Below are positions 23,209 to 59,935 of a DNA stretch of 64,000 nt, in pieces (the stretch's first letter is position 1; the number at the start of each line of letters is the position of its first letter). This DNA comes from Calditrichia bacterium (lineage in GTDB: Bacteria > Calditrichota > Calditrichia > RBG-13-44-9 > J075). Location: NCBI GenBank assembly GCA_028284905.1, contig JANQQU010000028.1:62001-126000 (forward strand), written 5' to 3'. Below the pieces are notes generated by a model. The model had not been told where the DNA came from and made no database searches. It saw only the letters and a program-made list of their open reading frames with translations. The translations under genes were made by a program, and so were the position numbers.

Positions 23209-23264
23209 CAAATGGGCAAATATGCAAAACTGTAAATTTGCCCATTTGCCCATTTGCCCATTTG
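23209..23264. repeat. TTGCCCAT-family hairpin repeat, copy 2
   Basis: CAAATGGGCAAATATGCAAA (23209-23228) pairs, with two mismatches, with TTTGCCCATTTGCCCATTTG (23237-23256). One more unit follows. It lies between two plus-strand genes, just before the methyltransferase. Confidence 0.88.
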
Positions 23265-38311: not shown

Positions 38312-40087
38312 TTGAAAAATAATTTTATTTATTCTCTGGTTCGTCCCTACCGGTGGTTGGCACTTTTGCTTGTTTTTGTTACTGCTGCAGCATCGCTTTT
38401 TGATGGTTTGTCGATTGGGATGATGATCCCATTATTATCAAGCCTGCAGAACATGACTGAAATAGATCAACTGCCCGGCATTCTGGAATACGTTACCGGA
38501 TTATTCAGTCATTTGCCCCAGGAAGCCCAGATCCAATATACTGGAGGCATATTAATTCTATCCGTTGTGGCAAAAAATTTATTCCTGGGGTTTTCCATGG
38601 CCCTGGGCGTTTGGTTATCCACCCGTATGACCGCAAACATTCGCTGTCAAGCGATTGATATGCTGATGAGTGTCGATGTAAAATTTTTTCAGCATACCAA
38701 GGTCGGTTACCTTACTGAAACGATTTTAGCCAAGACGATGACTGTGGATAATATCTTTAAGTGGATCATCGATATTGGCGTCAGGTTAATCAACTTCATT
38801 GTGTTGACTGTCCTGATATTCATTATTTCCTGGCAACTCACCTTAATAACCTTGCTTTTCAGCGCATTAATCGCCTTAGGAATAAGTTACTACTTAAAAA
38901 TCGTGAGGAACTTTGGTGGAAAATCCGCCCGCAGTAATCGTAAGTTAAGCGCCGCACTTACCGAGAATATACTTGGCATCCGGGTGATTAAGTATTTTTC
39001 CCGGGAAGAAGAACGGGGCGAACGGATGAAGTTGCAGATTAATCACAACCGTCGGGTCCGTTTTCGTTTAAAGTTGGTGAACTCAATGATTCACCTCATC
39101 ACCGAAGGGGTGGGTATTATAGCCCTGGGAATTATCTTCTTCATTAGCTTACAATCTTATCAGTTCAACAGCAAACTGTTGATTACCCAATTATTACCCT
39201 TTATGTATGTGTTGATCCGTCTGATACCGGTCATTCGGGAAATTAATCAATTACGAGGATTTATCGCCGGGAACTGGCCATTTTTAAGTCTTGTCGAGAA
39301 ATTGATTGATGCTTCCGATAAACCGATTATGAAAGATGGCGATAAAACTTTTACCGGCCTTAACAAAAATATCGAATTCCAAAATGTCGATTTCGCCTAT
39401 AGTGACGATGAGAAAATTGTCTTGAAAAATGCCAGTTTTAATTTGCCAAGGGGAAAAACCACGGCAATTGTTGGGCAATCCGGTGCTGGTAAGTCGACCA
39501 TTATTAATCTGTTAATGCGAATGTATGATCCGCAAGCCGGTGAAGTGTTGATTGACGGGACACCGCTAAAAGATTTCAAACGAAGCGCTTTTCGGGAGAA
39601 TGTCGGAATCGTTAGTCAGGATACTTTTATTTTTAATGATACGGTAAAAAATAATATTGCCTTCGGGGCAATAACGCCTCCAACAGATGATGAAATTGAA
39701 CAAGCTGCCAAAAATGCCGGTGCTCATGAGTTCATTAAAGAATTGCCACTGGGATATAATACGATTTTGGGAGACCAGGGATTGATCCTTTCCGGCGGAC
39801 AGCGGCAGCGGATATCAATTGCCCGGGCAATATTAAAAGATCCGGAAATCTTGATCTTGGATGAAGCAACAAGTGCATTGGATAATGTAACGGAAAAACT
39901 TGTATATCAGGCGATCGAATCCTTAAGCGAGAACCGAACCGTTGTGGTTATTGCCCATCGGCTTTCTACGATTCAGCATGCGGATCAAATTATCGTTCTG
40001 AAAGATGGAGAAGTGGTAGAAATCGGAAAAGAAGACGGCCTGATCGCCCGTAAAGGTGAATATTACCGATTGGCGCAATCGATTTAA
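38312..40087 (+). CDS. MsbA/PglK-like ABC exporter
   Basis: A 591-residue half-transporter with six membrane helices (1-320) fused to an ATPase domain. Walker A is GQSGAGKST (about 387-395), the signature LSGGQRQRISIARAI (about 492) and Walker B ILILDEATSALD (about 512), with H-loop VIAHRLST. Heading a glycan locus, it probably flips a lipid-linked oligosaccharide or lipid A-type glycolipid across the inner membrane. The start is TTG with AAAGAAAG upstream. It is followed closely by the first glycosyltransferase. Confidence 0.9.
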   Translation: MKNNFIYSLVRPYRWLALLLVFVTAAASLFDGLSIGMMIPLLSSLQNMTEIDQLPGILEYVTGLFSHLPQEAQIQYTGGILILSVVAKNLFLGFSMALGVWLSTRMTANIRCQAIDMLMSVDVKFFQHTKVGYLTETILAKTMTVDNIFKWIIDIGVRLINFIVLTVLIFIISWQLTLITLLFSALIALGISYYLKIVRNFGGKSARSNRKLSAALTENILGIRVIKYFSREEERGERMKLQINHNRRVRFRLKLVNSMIHLITEGVGIIALGIIFFISLQSYQFNSKLLITQLLPFMYVLIRLIPVIREINQLRGFIAGNWPFLSLVEKLIDASDKPIMKDGDKTFTGLNKNIEFQNVDFAYSDDEKIVLKNASFNLPRGKTTAIVGQSGAGKSTIINLLMRMYDPQAGEVLIDGTPLKDFKRSAFRENVGIVSQDTFIFNDTVKNNIAFGAITPPTDDEIEQAAKNAGAHEFIKELPLGYNTILGDQGLILSGGQRQRISIARAILKDPEILILDEATSALDNVTEKLVYQAIESLSENRTVVVIAHRLSTIQHADQIIVLKDGEVVEIGKEDGLIARKGEYYRLAQSI

Positions 40088-50024: not shown

Positions 50025-51161
50025 ATGTTTAAAATCAAGAAACGAATTCTATACTGGACGCAGCTGTTTTATCCTTACGTCGGTGGGGTAGAGGTGCTCG
50101 GTACTCGATTTATACCGACATTGGAAAAGCGTGGATTCGAATTTATCGTGGTTACTTCCCATGGAAGCCTGGACCTGCCTGATGAAGACGAACATAATGG
50201 TATTAAAATTTTTCGCCTGCCGTTTCAAACTGCCCTTCGAGAGAAAAATTTTGAAGATATGATTATTGCCCGCAGGCGATTACAACAGATCAAGCAAACA
50301 TTTAAACCGGATATTGTTCATTTTAATTTTACCGATCCTAGTATCTTTTTCCATTGGCAAACGCAGGCAGCACATCCGGCAAAAACCATTGTCTCGATTC
50401 GCCTGGCAGTACCTTCTGCACCGGCAAGCGAACAGTCGCTGCTGGGACAAACATTCCGTAATGCGGATTGGATTACCACCAATTCCCGGGCCATGCTGGC
50501 CGATGTTCGTCAGGCAGTGCCGGAGACAGTGGATTATTCCTCGACGATTTATAATGGCCTGGAGCAGCCAAAAATTTCCCCCGATCCTGTTTCTTATCAA
50601 CCGTTGCACTTATTAGCTATCGGAAGAGTGGTGCCGGAAAAAGGGTTCGATGTCGCTCTGGCAGCGATGCCTGAAATTCTCGCAAAACGACCGGATGCCC
50701 GTCTGACCATCGCCGGGGATGGGCCGGAAAAAGCACAACTGGAAAAACAGGTAGAAACCCTGGGGGTACAGTCTGCAGTGAATTTTACCGGATGGGTGAC
50801 GCCGGAGAAAGTGTATGAATTGATCAATGGTGCATCGCTGGTTGTCGTGCCTTCCCGTTGGCGGGAAGCTTTCGGCTTGGTGGCATTACAGGCATCGCAA
50901 ATGGCCAGGCCAGTCGTGGCCACCGAGGTTGGTGGATTACCGGAAGTGGTTGCAAATGGTCAAACCGGCCTCATTGTCGCAAAAGAAAACCCTACTGAAT
51001 TGGCAAAAGCGGTGTTGCATTTGGCCGATTCACCGGAACAATCCGCAAAGATGGGTATTGCTGGCCGGGAGCGTGCTAAGGAGATGTTTAACTGGGACAA
51101 ACACATTGATGAATACGAGCAGCTCTATCAACGCTTGCTCAGATCAGCGGAGGTTGATTAA
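50025..51161 (+). CDS. Family 4 glycosyltransferase
   Basis: A 378-residue GT-B enzyme with WTQLFYPYVGGVEVLGTRFI, the second-domain LLAIGRVVPEKGFDVALAAM, LTIAGDGPEKAQLEKQV and donor motif PSRWREAFGLVALQASQMAR (E-x7-E type), then ATEVGGLPEVVANGQTGLIV. It overlaps the next gene by one base. Transfer of a hexose is likely. Confidence 0.93.
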   Translation: MFKIKKRILYWTQLFYPYVGGVEVLGTRFIPTLEKRGFEFIVVTSHGSLDLPDEDEHNGIKIFRLPFQTALREKNFEDMIIARRRLQQIKQTFKPDIVHFNFTDPSIFFHWQTQAAHPAKTIVSIRLAVPSAPASEQSLLGQTFRNADWITTNSRAMLADVRQAVPETVDYSSTIYNGLEQPKISPDPVSYQPLHLLAIGRVVPEKGFDVALAAMPEILAKRPDARLTIAGDGPEKAQLEKQVETLGVQSAVNFTGWVTPEKVYELINGASLVVVPSRWREAFGLVALQASQMARPVVATEVGGLPEVVANGQTGLIVAKENPTELAKAVLHLADSPEQSAKMGIAGRERAKEMFNWDKHIDEYEQLYQRLLRSAEVD

Positions 51162-51859
51162 TGGGAAAACCTTTGATTTCCTGCATTATGCCGGTTTATA
51201 ATGGCGAAAAATATCTGGCCGAAGCATTGGAAAGTATTTTCGCCCAGACGATCGTTCCGGAAGAGATCATCGTTGCAGACGATTGTTCGCAGGATGGCAC
51301 AGCTGCTGTTCTGGAAAAATACCGGGAAAGAATTACCGTTATTCGGCTGGAAAAGAATCTTGGCCCGCCATCGGCGAGAAATTCAGCCATCCGCGCCTCC
51401 CGGGGCGAATTTCTGACTTTTCTCGATGCTGATGATCTCTGGCATCCGGAAAAAACGGAAATTCAGTTAACAAGATTTCGGGAAGTTCCCAGCCTGAGTA
51501 TGTGCCAATCATATGCTAAAAATTTCTGGAGCCCGGAGCTTACCGAGGATGAAAGGGGATCTCGCCATCCCCGTTTATTGCAGCCCTGGCCGGGAAATAT
51601 TTTGCAATCGATGATGATCCGGCGCGTTGCTTTCGATAAAGTTGGCTGGTTGGATCCGGCTCTGCTCACCAATGATGATGGTGATTGGTTCCTGCGGGCA
51701 AAAGATACCGGCATCGAACGGGAAATGCTTACCGACGTGTTGGTGCATCGGCGCTTGCATTTGCATAACCTTACCCGCATTTATGCAGATGATTCCCGGG
51801 AAAGTTTACTGAAAAGGGTAAAAGAATTGGTTGATCGGCAGCGGGATAATAAGCGCTGA
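51161..51859 (+). CDS. Family 2 glycosyltransferase, paralog A
   Basis: A 232-residue compact GT-A enzyme: LISCIMPVYNGEKYLAEALE, SIFAQTIVPEEIIVADDCSQ, metal motif LDADDLWHPEKTE, and DGDWFLRAKDTGI. The ending HRRLHLHNLTR then LVDRQRDNKR is shared with the GT2s at 53553 and 55506, so the three are recent paralogs. All lie next to the PqqD/HprK/nucleotidyltransferase genes. Confidence 0.88.
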   Translation: MGKPLISCIMPVYNGEKYLAEALESIFAQTIVPEEIIVADDCSQDGTAAVLEKYRERITVIRLEKNLGPPSARNSAIRASRGEFLTFLDADDLWHPEKTEIQLTRFREVPSLSMCQSYAKNFWSPELTEDERGSRHPRLLQPWPGNILQSMMIRRVAFDKVGWLDPALLTNDDGDWFLRAKDTGIEREMLTDVLVHRRLHLHNLTRIYADDSRESLLKRVKELVDRQRDNKR

Positions 51860-51891: not shown

Positions 51892-51938
51892 TTGCCCATT
51901 TGCCCATTTATAATTTTTGCAAATGGGCAAATGGGCAA
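51892..51938. repeat. TTGCCCAT-family hairpin repeat, copy 3
   Basis: TTGCCCATTTGCCCATTT (51892-51909) and AAATGGGCAAATGGGCAA (51921-51938) form a perfect 18-bp stem with an 11-base loop. The arms are identical to those of copy 1 in reversed order. It separates the glycosyltransferase run from the PqqD-like gene. Confidence 0.92.
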
Positions 51939-51998: not shown

Positions 51999-52451
51999 AT
52001 GACAGGAATGAGTCGTTTTATGGTAAATGAAGCAGAGGTTGCTGCGAAGGTGATGGATGGTGAAGCGATATTGATCGATCTTTCTTCAGGGAAATACTAC
52101 AGTATGGATCTTGTTGGTGGATTTGTCTGGTCTTTGCTCTCATCACAGCATAGCGTGGAGGAAACCATCGCGGCGGTGACTGCTCACTATGAAGTTGCTG
52201 AGGAGCGGGCGGCAACCGATGTGAAAAAATTACTGGATGAATTACAAAAAGAAAAATTGATCGTCGCCTCAAATGCCGAATCAGCTGCTGTGGCAGCACC
52301 GGCAGCACCAGCCGAGAAAAGTGAATACACCGAACCGAAGCTTTATACATATGAAGATATGGGAGACCTCCTTGCCCTGGATCCACCGATGCCCGGGTTG
52401 ACTGAAGTTCCCTGGGAAGGTGCGGATAATAAAACCGAAGAGGGAAAATAG
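51999..52451 (+). CDS. PqqD-like (RRE) protein with a substrate-like C-terminal tail
   Basis: A 150-residue protein. Residues 8-92 are a PqqD-type winged-helix domain, which in peptide-modifying pathways binds leader peptides: EAILIDLSSGKYYSMDLVGG, then FVWSLLSSQHSVEETIAAV and AATDVKKLLDELQKEKLI. An Ala/Pro linker (AAVAAPAAPAEKS) joins a 42-residue tail with YTEPKLYTYEDMGDLLALDP. That YxxPxLxxY-DM-LL-LDP pattern looks like a conserved peptide, similar in style to RiPP leaders. The ribosome site is AAGGAG. The HprK-like gene overlaps its stop by one base. Confidence 0.85.
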   Translation: MTGMSRFMVNEAEVAAKVMDGEAILIDLSSGKYYSMDLVGGFVWSLLSSQHSVEETIAAVTAHYEVAEERAATDVKKLLDELQKEKLIVASNAESAAVAAPAAPAEKSEYTEPKLYTYEDMGDLLALDPPMPGLTEVPWEGADNKTEEGK

Positions 52452-53542
52452 TGTCCTCCTATCAAGCCCTTTTCAATGCAATGAATCAGGCATACTACCG
52501 GGCGGAAGCATCTGTCGACGGCCCGGCAATTGTAACTGATTATATATTTGCCGGACATCCGGTGAGGATGTATAATGTTGCCGAATCGCTCAGTGAACGT
52601 ATGCAACGGGCTTTTTCCTATCTTGAAAAATCAATCCATGATCAATCACCTTCTGGTCTGATCATCAGACAATGGGACGAAGAGGCTACCGGCGTTTCCC
52701 TGCCCGAACAAGCAAGAACGCTTAATGAAGGCTGGGCATTCGAATACGAAGATGGCATACTTTGTGGTTCAGCGGACGGAAGGTATGCGATGTTCCGGGA
52801 AGCGCAGACTGTGGCTCTCCTGGATCGTGTCGAAAAAGCATTCGTCGCCTGGCATCAATCTGCCCGGCAGATGCCAATCCATCAACAGTCTAAACCGCAT
52901 AACCAGCTGCTGGCGATGTGGTATGGTGATCGGGGCATTCAGGTATTGCATGGTGGTATGGTCGCAAAGGACGCAGGGGCGGTTTTATTTGCCGGACCGA
53001 GCCGCGCCGGAAAGACTACATCCAGCCTGGTTTGCGCCCAGAACGGCTTTTCTTTTCTTGGGGAAGATTTTGTCGGGCTATCCCGGACAAAAACGGAGAG
53101 TTTTATCGGTCATAGCCTGTTTCATTCTGTTCGACTAACGCCAGAGCATCTGCGGCGATTTCCCCAAATGGCCAAATATGCACAGCCGGATATTTCCCCG
53201 CTCGATGCGAAAAAATTGATCTTTTTTTCGGATGCCTATTCCGGCAAAACAACCCTCTCAGCACCGGTAAAATTAATCCTCTTTCCCCGGGTGACGAACG
53301 CAGAGGAGATTTCCTTTGAGCCGATAAGTAAGGGAAAAGCCTTGTTAAGGTTTGCCTACAGCTGTTTACGTATTCCTTCGCGAACGAAAGGGAATGGTAT
53401 GGATATTTTAGCGGATGTAATTAAAAGCACCCCAACTTTTTGGCTGAATCTGGGCCGTCATCCGGAAGATATTCCCGGTGCTGTAGAAAATATATTATCT
53501 GAATTATATCCTCAGCAGGAAAAGCGAAATAAAGTTGGTTAG
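52451..53542 (+). CDS. HprK-related kinase
   Basis: A 363-residue protein whose C-terminal half matches HPr-kinase-like P-loop proteins: Walker A AGPSRAGKTTSS (181-192) followed by GFSFLGEDFVGLSR with the acidic pair E205/D206. The N-terminal half (1-170) is not that of true HprK. Related kinases in lasso-peptide clusters phosphorylate a Ser of the precursor. Here the tail of the PqqD protein, a glycan or a separate peptide may be the target; this is inference. The GTG start overlaps the PqqD stop (TAGTG). Confidence 0.83.
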   Translation: MSSYQALFNAMNQAYYRAEASVDGPAIVTDYIFAGHPVRMYNVAESLSERMQRAFSYLEKSIHDQSPSGLIIRQWDEEATGVSLPEQARTLNEGWAFEYEDGILCGSADGRYAMFREAQTVALLDRVEKAFVAWHQSARQMPIHQQSKPHNQLLAMWYGDRGIQVLHGGMVAKDAGAVLFAGPSRAGKTTSSLVCAQNGFSFLGEDFVGLSRTKTESFIGHSLFHSVRLTPEHLRRFPQMAKYAQPDISPLDAKKLIFFSDAYSGKTTLSAPVKLILFPRVTNAEEISFEPISKGKALLRFAYSCLRIPSRTKGNGMDILADVIKSTPTFWLNLGRHPEDIPGAVENILSELYPQQEKRNKVG

Positions 53543-53552
53543 TCGTAATAAA

Positions 53553-54287
53553 ATGAAAAAGAACATTCTGCAAAATGAGACCTTTCCACCAGCACTGATC
53601 AGTTGCATTATTCCGGTCTTCAACTGCGAAAAATACCTGGCAGAAGCATTGGAAAGCGTTTTTGCCCAGACTTATTCTCCGCTGGAGGTGATCGTTGTTG
53701 ATGATGGCTCAACGGATGATACTTGCGAAATCATTGCTGCTTTTGCCAGTTGGTTAAAATATTTTCGGCAGCAAAATGCCGGCCCAGCCGCCGCCCGTAA
53801 CAGGGGAATTAAACTGGCGAAAGGGCGCTTTATCGCTTTCCTTGATGCGGATGACTATTGGCATCCGGAAAAATTATCCCGGCAAATGGAAGCTTTTCAG
53901 GCAAATCCTGATCTGGAAGTATGTGTATCCCACATCCAAAATTTTCAAAGTGACGAGCTGAAGGGAAACACAGAACATGAATTAGCGTCCCGTCATTTCC
54001 GGCCATTTCCCGGGAATGTATGTCCAACGCTGCTGGCTAAAAGAGAAGCGTTCGAGAAAACAGGCCTGTTCGATGAAACGCTGCGGACCGGTGAGGATTT
54101 GGATTGGTTTTTAAGAGCCAAAGATGCCGGCATCGTTAAGGAGATGCTTTCCGATGTACTCTTATATCGTCGCCTGCATAAGAATAATTTAACGAAGCGA
54201 TGTGCAAACGAGACCCGCGACAATTTAATGCGTCATCTAAAAAAATTGGTAGACCGGCATAAGCAGGAGAAAAATTCTTTTGAATAA
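53553..54287 (+). CDS. Family 2 glycosyltransferase, paralog B
   Basis: A 244-residue GT-A enzyme: LISCIIPVFNCEKYLAEALE, SVFAQTYSPLEVIVVDDGST, metal motif LDADDYWHPEKLS, DLDWFLRAKDAGI and the shared ending YRRLHKNNLTKRC then LVDRHKQEK. ATG 53553 is used; a TTG at 53535 is an in-frame alternative that overlaps the kinase gene by eight bases. It lies directly after the HprK-like gene. Confidence 0.87.
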   Translation: MKKNILQNETFPPALISCIIPVFNCEKYLAEALESVFAQTYSPLEVIVVDDGSTDDTCEIIAAFASWLKYFRQQNAGPAAARNRGIKLAKGRFIAFLDADDYWHPEKLSRQMEAFQANPDLEVCVSHIQNFQSDELKGNTEHELASRHFRPFPGNVCPTLLAKREAFEKTGLFDETLRTGEDLDWFLRAKDAGIVKEMLSDVLLYRRLHKNNLTKRCANETRDNLMRHLKKLVDRHKQEKNSFE

Positions 54288-57322: not shown

Positions 57323-58516
57323 ATGCAATTCTCTAAAAAAGATAACCCTACATTTGCTTTGTTTTCTCTTTTACTGCCTTCCAATACTGAAACTTTGCTT
57401 TTACAGTCCTGCCTGTTGAATGGAGAAGCCTTAACGGTCGCCTGGGAGAAATTTCAGGGAAATTCGAACTTGCCGATAGAGTTTTTCAAACATGAAAAAC
57501 AGGGACTAAAAAGGCTGCTGCCGCTATTATACAAAAATTTACTGGCACATAACCTGAAATTGGATAAGAAATTCCAGACGGTGCTCCGTACTGCCCGGGT
57601 TCGGGAAGAACTTAGAAGCAAAACCTTTTTGGATGTCTTTCGGAAAACTCTGCACTCTTTAAAAAATAGCAATTTTCCGTATACGCTCTTAAAAGGCACC
57701 CTTCTGGCGGAAACTGTTTATAGTGATTGGTCGCTACGGCACTGCCATGATGTGGATATACTCGTCGCCCGCTCCCATCTGGTTGCAGCAGAGAGGGCTT
57801 TGAAAAAAGCCGGGTTCGAACGGCCGGAAGGAGCAAGGCCAATCAGTAATTATGATGTTACTGTATGCCATCCTTCTAATCTGCCGGTAGAGATTCATAG
57901 TGACCTATTCCCGGTTCATTTCTATCAGCCACCAATGCATGATTTATTGGAAAGAAGACAAACTGAGAATATCCTCGGTGTTGAATTACCAGTTTTTACA
58001 CCAACAGATAACCTCTTCCATGTGATCGGTCATGCTGCTTGTTCGAGAAGCCGGGAGACCCTACGGTGGGTCTGCGATGCTCATATGCTTATAGATAAAC
58101 ATCAGATCGATTGGGATTTGTTTCTGAGTATAATACTGCAAAGCAAGATGTGTATTCCATTTAGTATATTTCTCAATTATCTCAAAGAGGAATTTGCAGC
58201 ACCAATACCGGAAAAAGTATTAAAACAGGTTGGATTTACTGCAGCTTGTGCCGGCCGAGCGGAGTTGGAAGCAGCATTTACCTGTCTACGCATGGGGAGA
58301 AACGGTACTGTGCGAAATTTACTCTACCATACCAGTGATGAAGTATTACGTAAACAACTGATCCAGTGGCTGATGTTCCCATCAATGGAATGCCTCCGCT
58401 GGAGTTACGATATCGAAAAGCGTTGGGCAACCCCCTTTTACTATTTTTACCGGCCATTCAAATTTATTAGCGATTCCGTTCCCAAAATGCCCGGATTTAA
58501 AGTTTCACATGGATGA
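57323..58516 (+). CDS. Nucleotidyltransferase family protein (NTP_transf_5 type)
   Basis: A 397-residue protein with an N-terminal helical domain (LLPLLYKNLLAHNLKLDKKF) and a minimal nucleotidyltransferase core: LLKGTLLAE (122-130) and the metal pair in HCHDVDILVARS (D143, D145). The C-terminal part is helical with VIGHAACSRSRETLRWVCDA. This family often accompanies PqqD-like and HprK-like genes in lasso-peptide and glycan clusters. The substrate is unknown. A paralog begins at 63258. It overlaps the sulfotransferase gene by eight bases. Confidence 0.82.
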   Translation: MQFSKKDNPTFALFSLLLPSNTETLLLQSCLLNGEALTVAWEKFQGNSNLPIEFFKHEKQGLKRLLPLLYKNLLAHNLKLDKKFQTVLRTARVREELRSKTFLDVFRKTLHSLKNSNFPYTLLKGTLLAETVYSDWSLRHCHDVDILVARSHLVAAERALKKAGFERPEGARPISNYDVTVCHPSNLPVEIHSDLFPVHFYQPPMHDLLERRQTENILGVELPVFTPTDNLFHVIGHAACSRSRETLRWVCDAHMLIDKHQIDWDLFLSIILQSKMCIPFSIFLNYLKEEFAAPIPEKVLKQVGFTAACAGRAELEAAFTCLRMGRNGTVRNLLYHTSDEVLRKQLIQWLMFPSMECLRWSYDIEKRWATPFYYFYRPFKFISDSVPKMPGFKVSHG

Positions 58517-59228
58517 TAATACCTGGATAATCACCGGCATTCCCCGAAGCGGCACATCATTGCTTGCTTCGCTGATATGCACTGTACCGAACTGTTATTG
58601 TGCGAATGAAATCTATTATAATGTCAAGACTTTAAAACGGGACTTAATACGCTTACGCAAACGGCTTGCTCGGGGCAGAGCAGTACCAAATAAATGGCTG
58701 GGTGATACTGTGGCGACAGATACAATGACTGCAGGCTTGCAGACAGGGAAACGCAAAGTTGCCGGCGTATTTGATGCTCATTGCCTGGTTGCCAGCAAAG
58801 TGAATGTGCCTTACCTGTTTGCTTTGGAAAATTTGCTGATGGAGGGATTTCGGATTGCCGCATTAGTGCGCAATCCGCTTTATACCATTGCTTCCTGGAA
58901 TTTGCCGACAACGTATGTCCCGGAAGCGCATCCTACCAAAGGGCGATATGTGGGCTGGCACTACCATGGTAGCAATAAATATGAGCAACAGGCCGAACTT
59001 TGGAATCGCCTGGCTGCTATTTTACTGAATTACCCGCCAGAAATTTTGTTGCGCTATGAAGATCTGGTAGAAAGGCCGGAAAAATTCCTGACAAAAATCA
59101 CCCGCCAAAAAACTGAGCTGACAGCATTGTCATCAAAAAATGATGAAGAACGTTACCAGCATATTCCAGCAATTCGGGAAGCGATAGAAAAATACGCGCC
59201 CTTACGCCGGGAATTTGGTTATAAATGA
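58509..59228 (+). CDS. Sulfotransferase-family protein
   Basis: A 239-residue protein with the PAPS 5'-phosphosulfate loop ITGIPRSGTSLLASLI (8-23) and a 3'-phosphate segment LVRNPLYTIASW. ALVRNPLYT plus LLRYEDLVERPEKFL are typical of bacterial sulfotransferases that sulfate glycans, lipids or peptides. Its stop lies inside the first unit of a repeat element. It overlaps the nucleotidyltransferase gene, which suggests joint expression. Confidence 0.82.
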   Translation: MDDNTWIITGIPRSGTSLLASLICTVPNCYCANEIYYNVKTLKRDLIRLRKRLARGRAVPNKWLGDTVATDTMTAGLQTGKRKVAGVFDAHCLVASKVNVPYLFALENLLMEGFRIAALVRNPLYTIASWNLPTTYVPEAHPTKGRYVGWHYHGSNKYEQQAELWNRLAAILLNYPPEILLRYEDLVERPEKFLTKITRQKTELTALSSKNDEERYQHIPAIREAIEKYAPLRREFGYK

Positions 59229-59305
59229 GCAAATGAGCAGATGAGCAATTTTATCGCCTGCTCATTTGTATATTTGCCCATTTGCCCATTTGCCCATTTT
59301 CAAAC
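59224..59305. repeat. Hybrid GAGC / TTGCCCAT repeat, copy 4
   Basis: AATGAGCAAATGAGCAGATG then AGCAA at the left pairs partly with TGCTCATTTG. The element continues as TTTGCCCATTTGCCCATTTG and CCCATTTTCAAACT. The 3' end repeats the CCCATTTTTCAAACT edge of copy 1. The sulfotransferase stop codon (59226-59228) falls in the first unit. Confidence 0.85.
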
Positions 59306-59314
59306 TCCCTTCAC

Positions 59315-59935
59315 ATGTCCAAAAACCCATCTCCGAAAATATTCTGCATCGGCTTTCATAAAACCGGAACTATGTCGCTGGAAAAAGCCCTGACGATCTT
59401 AGGCTACCGGGTAACCGGACCGAATGGCTTCAATGATCCGGAAATAGCCGAAAATGCCCGGAAAATGGTGAACGAATTAGTGCCGCAATATGATGCCTTC
59501 CAGGATAATCCCTGGCCGCTCTTTTATAAGGAGATGGATGAGCAATATCCTGGTAGTAAGTTTATCCTGACGCTGCGTCCCACCGATGAATGGCTGGCCA
59601 GCGCCGTGCATTTTTTTGGTGCAGAGAGTACCCCAATGCGCGAATGGATCTACGGTGCCGGTTCGCCATTAGGAAATGAATCAACATATACCAAACGCTT
59701 TGAAACTCACAATAAAACAGTGCTTCAATACTTTAAGGAACGTCCGGATGATCTATTGATTTTGCGAATTACCGCTGGAGATGGCTGGGAAAAGCTATGC
59801 CCGTTTTTAGATAAAGAAATCCCTGAGGTGCCATTTCCGCATATCAATAAAGCAACAAATGTTTCCCGTCGAATTATCGCAGTATCCTTTTTAAAACGAG
59901 TATTCGGAATGAAATCTAACAGAAAGGATTCATGA
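59315..59935 (+). CDS. Sulfotransferase-family protein (P-loop, Sulfotransfer_4 type)
   Basis: A 206-residue protein with IFCIGFHKTGTMSLEKALTI (9-28), the PAPS loop of this subfamily, and FILTLRPTDEWLASAVHFF as the 3'-phosphate region. ERPDDLLILRITAGDGWEKL is also characteristic. It differs from the first sulfotransferase, so two distinct sulfation steps are possible. The start at 59315 is used; an in-frame extension would run into the repeat. It overlaps the next gene by four bases. Confidence 0.8.
   Translation: MSKNPSPKIFCIGFHKTGTMSLEKALTILGYRVTGPNGFNDPEIAENARKMVNELVPQYDAFQDNPWPLFYKEMDEQYPGSKFILTLRPTDEWLASAVHFFGAESTPMREWIYGAGSPLGNESTYTKRFETHNKTVLQYFKERPDDLLILRITAGDGWEKLCPFLDKEIPEVPFPHINKATNVSRRIIAVSFLKRVFGMKSNRKDS

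Follow-up and report, generated by a model that had tools for sequence, protein, structure and literature searches.

The tailed PqqD gene and its neighbourhood

The window analysed here, a stretch of 64,000 nucleotides from a Calditrichia bacterium, carries at 51999..52451 an open reading frame for a 150-aa tailed PqqD/RRE protein, the sole PqqD in the 8.55-Mb source genome; this gene, its parts and the neighbouring genes described below lie on the + strand. In a profile search, PF05402 (PqqD) matches residues 22-88 with E=6e-17 and 62 bits against a curated cut-off of 23.4, and the domain as a whole (residues 10-89, 52026..52265) is modelled by AF2 with pLDDT 85-93. The best solved folds that Foldseek returned for this model were those of TbiB1 with its leader (5v1v and 5v1u; TM(target) 0.84-0.91, E=5e-6), and both the profile score and the winged-helix-type fold place the protein in the RRE/PqqD family. 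A variable Ala/Pro-rich linker follows (roughly residues 90-108, 52266..52322), and after it comes the tail, EYTEPKLYTYEDMGDLLALDPPMPGLTEVPWEGADNKTEEGK, which occupies residues 109-150 and, with the stop codon, positions 52323-52451. The first-pass annotation had described this succession of PqqD domain, Ala/Pro linker and 42-residue tail, and the open reading frame and the PF05402 match bear it out. We divide the tail into part A, EYTEPKLYTY, a leader-like strand (52323..52352); part B, EDMGDLLALDP (52353..52385); part C, PMPGLTEVPWEGA (52386..52424); and a variable C-terminus with the stop (52425..52451).

The pqqD stop overlaps by one base the gene of an HprK-like kinase (52451..53542), recognised through weak HprK matches in Pfam and NCBIfam. 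Its H167, K188 and D206 are conserved in the nine kinases compared, with Glu-Asp at residues 205-206, the catalytic pair, in the window protein as against Asp-Asp in the other eight (the H-K-D-D set). Family 2 glycosyltransferases (PF00535) lie directly upstream of pqqD (51161..51859) and directly downstream of the kinase (53535..54287), and this is also the most frequent neighbour family (25/110). Beyond them are an NTP_transf_5 nucleotidyltransferase, a PsmN/LppN-type partner that is a recurrent neighbour in other loci (57323..58516; PF14907, E=6e-37), and two sulfotransferases at 58509-59228 and 59282-59935 (PF13469, PF17784; 58509..59935 together). An MsbA-type ABC exporter, whose link to PqqD is putative, stands at the start of the cluster (38312..40087; PF00664, PF00005). 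With glycosyltransferases of families 2, 4 and 87, an MBOAT, the sulfotransferases, the exporter and NTP_transf_5, the cluster is of glycan type, and the LPP gene trio of RRE, HprK-like kinase (by weak profile matches) and NTP_transf_5 is all present in it. A family 2 glycosyltransferase of ~230 aa, often in several copies, and sulfotransferases recur beside tailed pqqD genes elsewhere (L004, L007, L049-L055).

Another relative of the window PqqD was detected in one of 40 genomes of the phylum, and that relative is tailless. Because the source genome has a single PqqD and these 40 genomes a lone tailless relative, the PqqD/kinase gene set of the window looks acquired. Sixty bp upstream of pqqD, at 51892-51938, lies an 18-bp perfect inverted repeat based on TTGCCCAT. 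The 18-mer occurs in 11 copies at four places in the window (also 2507-2568, 23210-23263 and 59274-59299), against 0.01 expected, and the element is a dispersed palindromic repeat.

Conservation and distribution of the tail

In an alignment of 20 sequences, mean pair identity stood at 0.35 for the PqqD domain and 0.11 for the linker; tail part A reached 0.41, part B 0.70 and part C 0.48, and the C-terminal residues 0.13. The DMxDLLxLDP segment of part B is the best-conserved stretch of the whole protein in relatives from Cyanobacteriota and Chloroflexota, and four of the six invariant columns fall in the tail. D120, D128 and P129 in part B and W139 in part C are invariant among 28 sequences of less than 70% identity. 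The first-pass annotation had proposed weighing the tail against the linker in homologs, and had held that a tail absent or variable in orthologs would speak against its idea. The tail is instead present and kept, with an identity in parts A, B and C above that of the linker and even above that of the PqqD domain, and the objection falls away. A match to [YWF]xxPx[LVIFA] in a single tail proves nothing, as 13% of shuffled tails match it by chance; it is through cross-phylum conservation and the invariant D120, D128, P129 and W139 that the tail motif is beyond chance.

The tails fall into two classes, a commoner one reading DPIHEVDxxGWP (IHEVDExGWP in part C) and a second reading DPPMPGxxExPW, to which the window tail belongs along with those of L037 and L045. 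We had considered the end of the window tail a degenerate copy of the commoner class, an idea that was dropped once these two relatives were found.

A Crinalium plasmid gene aligns with the window protein from end to end, including its tail FEKPMLEKFTDMEDLLLLDPIHEVDVEAGWP, and stands in an operon of PqqD, NTP transferase and HprK. It was the sole match in a search with a consensus tail; the window tail as sole query against plasmids returned nothing meaningful. A contig profile search with a two-row alignment gave two relatives, from which the family was extended. With the resulting tail profile, matches came up in 21 of the 292 cyanobacterial genomes searched and in 7 of the 301 from Chloroflexota; those matches that were translated proved to be PqqD proteins without exception. 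The tail-profile surveys of the cyanobacterial, Chloroflexota and later genome sets showed no tail standing free of a PqqD frame; no second tail copy was found in the source genome and no relative in the viral contigs searched. The tailed family occurs in at least three phyla. In a gut-cyanobacterial branch with genomes of 1.6-2.1 Mb the YxxP motif is largely gone. Two Chloroflexota genomes (G592 and G599; loci L063 and L064) each hold two differently tailed PqqDs within ~15 kb of each other.

The tail and the leader groove

Part A carries the motif [Y/F]xxPxL..Y at residues 110-118. The first-pass annotation had likened the whole tail pattern to RiPP leaders; the likeness holds for the YxxPxL part, whereas DM..LL.LDP matches no described leader motif that we found. 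LppB has been crystallised with its leader; in that structure the leader's Tyr-16 occupies a hydrophobic pocket and makes a hydrogen bond to LppB D70, and the next positions are filled by Pro-13 and Val-11 (PMC13381572). LppB D70 aligns with Asp74 of the window protein (52218..52220; HMMER alignment to chain 9x8z), and Asp74 covaries with residue 110 of the tail. Across 40 tailed PqqDs, residue 74 is Asp in 7 of the 8 proteins that have Tyr110 and in none of the 32 others (p=4e-7), which mostly carry Phe or belong to the diverged gut-cyanobacterial branch. The association persists after filtering by identity (p=3.6e-6 below 80%, 3e-4 below 50%), and column 74 ranks first among 83 domain columns for association with residue 110, the runner-up reaching 1.4e-3. 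Tyr110 and Asp74 occur jointly in about four separate lineages of a weakly resolved domain tree built without column 74. Separate precursors obey the same rule by eye, with Tyr and Asp in L093 and Trp and Gln in L069. Since the covariation mirrors the contact between the leader Tyr and LppB D70, it is very probable that the aromatic residue of the tail lies in the pocket that takes the leader's Tyr, either in its own chain or in a second copy, covariation being unable to tell cis binding from an exchange between two copies. We infer that binding is in cis.

Structure prediction points the same way. In the AF2 model of the window protein, made from an input of just three sequences (window, L006 and L007), pLDDT is 62 in the linker (residues 91-100), rises to 81-86 at residues 101-120, which include a strand at 116-118, and is mostly below 50 in the distal part; a helix is placed at 121-125. 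The L007 protein gave 41-45 in the linker, 78 and 72 in the tail and then less than 50, with a strand at 122-124 and a helix at 127-131, so that the order of strand and helix is alike in the two modelled proteins. The proximal half of the tail is thus predicted to be placed confidently on the domain and the distal half to be free. Judged by pLDDT and secondary structure, the docking on the PqqD domain that the first-pass annotation had suggested checking by prediction is accordingly suggested for part A, through a confident strand, and not for the distal part, where pLDDT is mostly below 50. As to whether the protein carries its own substrate or a bound leader analogue, the YxxPxL motif, the Y110-D74 covariation and the jump in AF2 confidence from linker to tail together give an analogue good support; a substrate is possible and not favoured.

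An ordered part A would also be expected if the tail did no more than complete the fold, as a structural extension with no leader-like role. We regard this as highly improbable, for PqqDs with no tail, such as TbiB1 and LppB, fold regardless, the contact residue of the tail matches that of a leader, and parts B and C stay conserved while mostly unpacked against the domain.

Kinase partner, precursor search and proposed role

Because the family had been gathered with the tail profile, a search that started from the kinase served as the sole tail-blind test. Among 447 genomes a close kinase turned up in 11, six of the 146 from Cyanobacteriota and five of the 301 from Chloroflexota, and each of the 11 has a tailed PqqD. 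Two tail-positive Chloroflexota genomes (G040 and G421) gave no detectable close kinase, possibly through draft gaps. PqqDs next to distant, lasso-type kinases stop at most 10 residues past the domain. The tail therefore tracks one clade of HprK-like kinases. In three species (L022/L115, L113 and L114) PqqD, tail, a weak PqqD-like segment and HprK form a single chain of ~620-660 aa; a tail that is internal in this way must work internally, and its release is not required. In the gut-cyanobacterial branch (L075 627-2616, L059-L061) an HprK-like kinase with a fused C-terminal PqqD domain adjoins the tailed PqqD.

These arrangements bear on the idea that the tail binds in trans, in the groove of another PqqD domain (that of a second copy or, in some lineages, of a kinase-fused PqqD), and so assembles a complex. 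The gut-cyanobacterial kinases do bring a C-terminal PqqD domain of their own, and the long fusions include a second, weakly matching PqqD-like segment. However, a PqqD domain is missing from the window kinase, the genome encodes one PqqD only, and the tail covaries with the domain to which it is itself fused, which would fit a homodimer and not a hetero-complex; we consider docking in trans very doubtful.

Nor did a separate precursor come to light. Within ~10 kb on each side of the tailed gene in 24 loci (the window and 23 others, with crude gene calling), no YxxP precursor in trans was convincing, and the sole small-ORF family widely common to these loci was the tailed PqqD itself. No LPP-type precursor with YxxPxVLxHQxIxFETxxS was found near tailed PqqD genes, and S26, the SpI-type peptidase, is absent among the 25 commonest neighbour families and the scanned window genes. 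Two loci with a tailless PqqD beside a distant, lasso-type kinase hold obvious separate precursors with a [Y/W]xxP leader, MKSMSKKNWQAPVVEAL... in L069, where lasso cyclase and B2 are also present, and MKYEQPLLLEHGALRDVTGTG... in L093. Queries for the lasso B2 protease and C cyclase taken from L069 matched no gene in 23 tailed loci, and neither was seen among the scanned window genes; the window PqqD also falls below the NCBIfam lasso_PqqD cut-offs (NF033536, 64 bits against 80; NF033530, 47.3 against 70).

Precursors may be encoded away from their RRE, and an auto-inhibitory gate, in which the tail plugs the groove and gives way only to a true precursor encoded at another site, would agree with the tail docking predicted from AF2 and covariation. 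Part A would suffice for such a gate by itself, yet conservation is highest in parts B and C; the 24 loci show no YxxP precursor within ~10 kb, and this tail was the only one found in the source genome. A gate is, in our judgement, improbable.

We suggest instead, at about even confidence, that the protein is an RRE with a built-in leader which fills its own groove and displays parts B and C as a docking or pseudosubstrate motif for the kinase. This reading is put forward for a tail that is conserved, co-occurs with one kinase clade, covaries with the groove and has no recognisable trans precursor nearby, and whose docking on the domain is predicted by computation. Part A (residues 110-118) would take the place that the leader of a separate precursor takes elsewhere, in the leader groove of the same protein, and would thereby fix parts B and C (DMxDLLxLDP, then DPIHEVDxxGWP or DPPMPGxxExPW) at a set position on the surface. 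Being the most conserved segments and yet mostly unpacked on the domain, parts B and C probably contact a partner, which we infer to be the HprK-like kinase encoded next door; the conserved D-P...W motif would be shown to it permanently. The RRE would then have come to serve the kinase, NTP transferase and glycosyltransferases as their dedicated adaptor subunit and would no longer catch free precursors. Against this reading count the loss of most of the YxxP motif in the gut-cyanobacterial branch and the two tail-positive Chloroflexota genomes in which no close kinase was detected. Given the loci, the final phosphorylation target of the kinase is possibly a sugar or glycan.

The tail could, on the other hand, be a precursor in cis and a true substrate, whose B/C core would receive a phosphate and then a nucleotide or a sugar while on the RRE, the protein serving as glycan carrier or primer. 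In favour of this, a displayed segment comes after the leader-like part A, a separate precursor was not found, residue 119 is Thr or Ser in 19 of 28 sequences, and the adjoining kinase, NTP transferase and glycosyltransferases make up a set that elsewhere phosphorylates and hexosylates lasso peptides (PMC9266682). However, no Ser, Thr or Tyr is ever invariant in the tail; residue 119 is Glu in the window protein and something other than Thr or Ser in 9 of the 28 sequences, which ruled it out as an obvious phosphosite. The core-like part is invariant where a core would vary, and the tail is internal in the three fusions. LppK takes only Ser at its site, S3T and S3Y not being accepted (PMC13381572), and the HprK-type kinases studied from such clusters modify Ser (PMC9266682; PMC13381572). 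Since the tail has no invariant Ser, Thr or Tyr, we prefer a docking or pseudosubstrate role to that of substrate, and find a cis-precursor rather unlikely. A permanently leader-bound RRE-leader chimera, whose tail accepts phosphate and then sugars and so acts as a glycan primer that stays on the protein without ever being released, seems to us unlikely.

RREs are defined by their binding of leaders supplied in trans. If the built-in leader with a displayed docking motif is correct, the family would show how a module for RiPP recognition can be turned into a permanent subunit of larger machinery, and tailed PqqDs may explain the PqqD/HprK/NTP-transferase sets in precursor-free glycan loci, which genome-mining tools would score as RiPP clusters. 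Borosins (OphMA) are likewise RiPP-type peptides naturally fused to their own machinery; that fusion is to a methyltransferase, however, the modified core is released and an RRE is absent. We found no description of the tail sequences, or of a leader 'fused to the RRE', in the literature searched, most subscription journals being outside the search.

The tailed PqqD is nearest to the LPP and paeninodin sets in fold, partners and leader motif, yet is without their defining separate precursor; it also lacks the lasso protease and cyclase. The closest solved folds and sequences, the TbiB1 and TfuB1 RREs with leaders (5v1v, 5v1u, 6jx3), are tailless chains of 91-99 residues whose leader is supplied in trans. 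Paeninodin and pseudomycoidin lasso clusters (PadeB1/PadeK, PsmK/PsmN) share the PqqD-type B1, HprK-like kinase, NTP transferase and [Y/W]xxP leader and, in some, sulfotransferases, but their B1 stops at the domain (as in L069) and their precursor is separate, whereas the tailed loci have no B2 or C homologue among the neighbours. LPP clusters (LppB/LppK/LppN, PMC13381572) resemble the tailed loci in their discrete RRE, HprK-like kinase, NTP transferase, MsbA-type exporter and glycosyltransferase-rich surroundings, and also in a YxxPx[V/L] leader motif and the contact of LppB D70 with the leader Tyr, mirrored by D74-Y110. They differ in that LPP precursors are separate proteins of 35-200 aa, cleaved by an SpI-type peptidase and phosphorylated at Ser3, whereas in the window the leader-like segment belongs to the RRE itself and precursor and SpI genes were not recognised. 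The 18 residues from Y110 to D128 equal the spacing from Tyr-16 to Ser3 in LPP, possibly by chance in a tail with four invariant residues. Where LPP has a phospho-Ser at core position +3, the window protein at the equivalent spacing carries the invariant Asp, D128.
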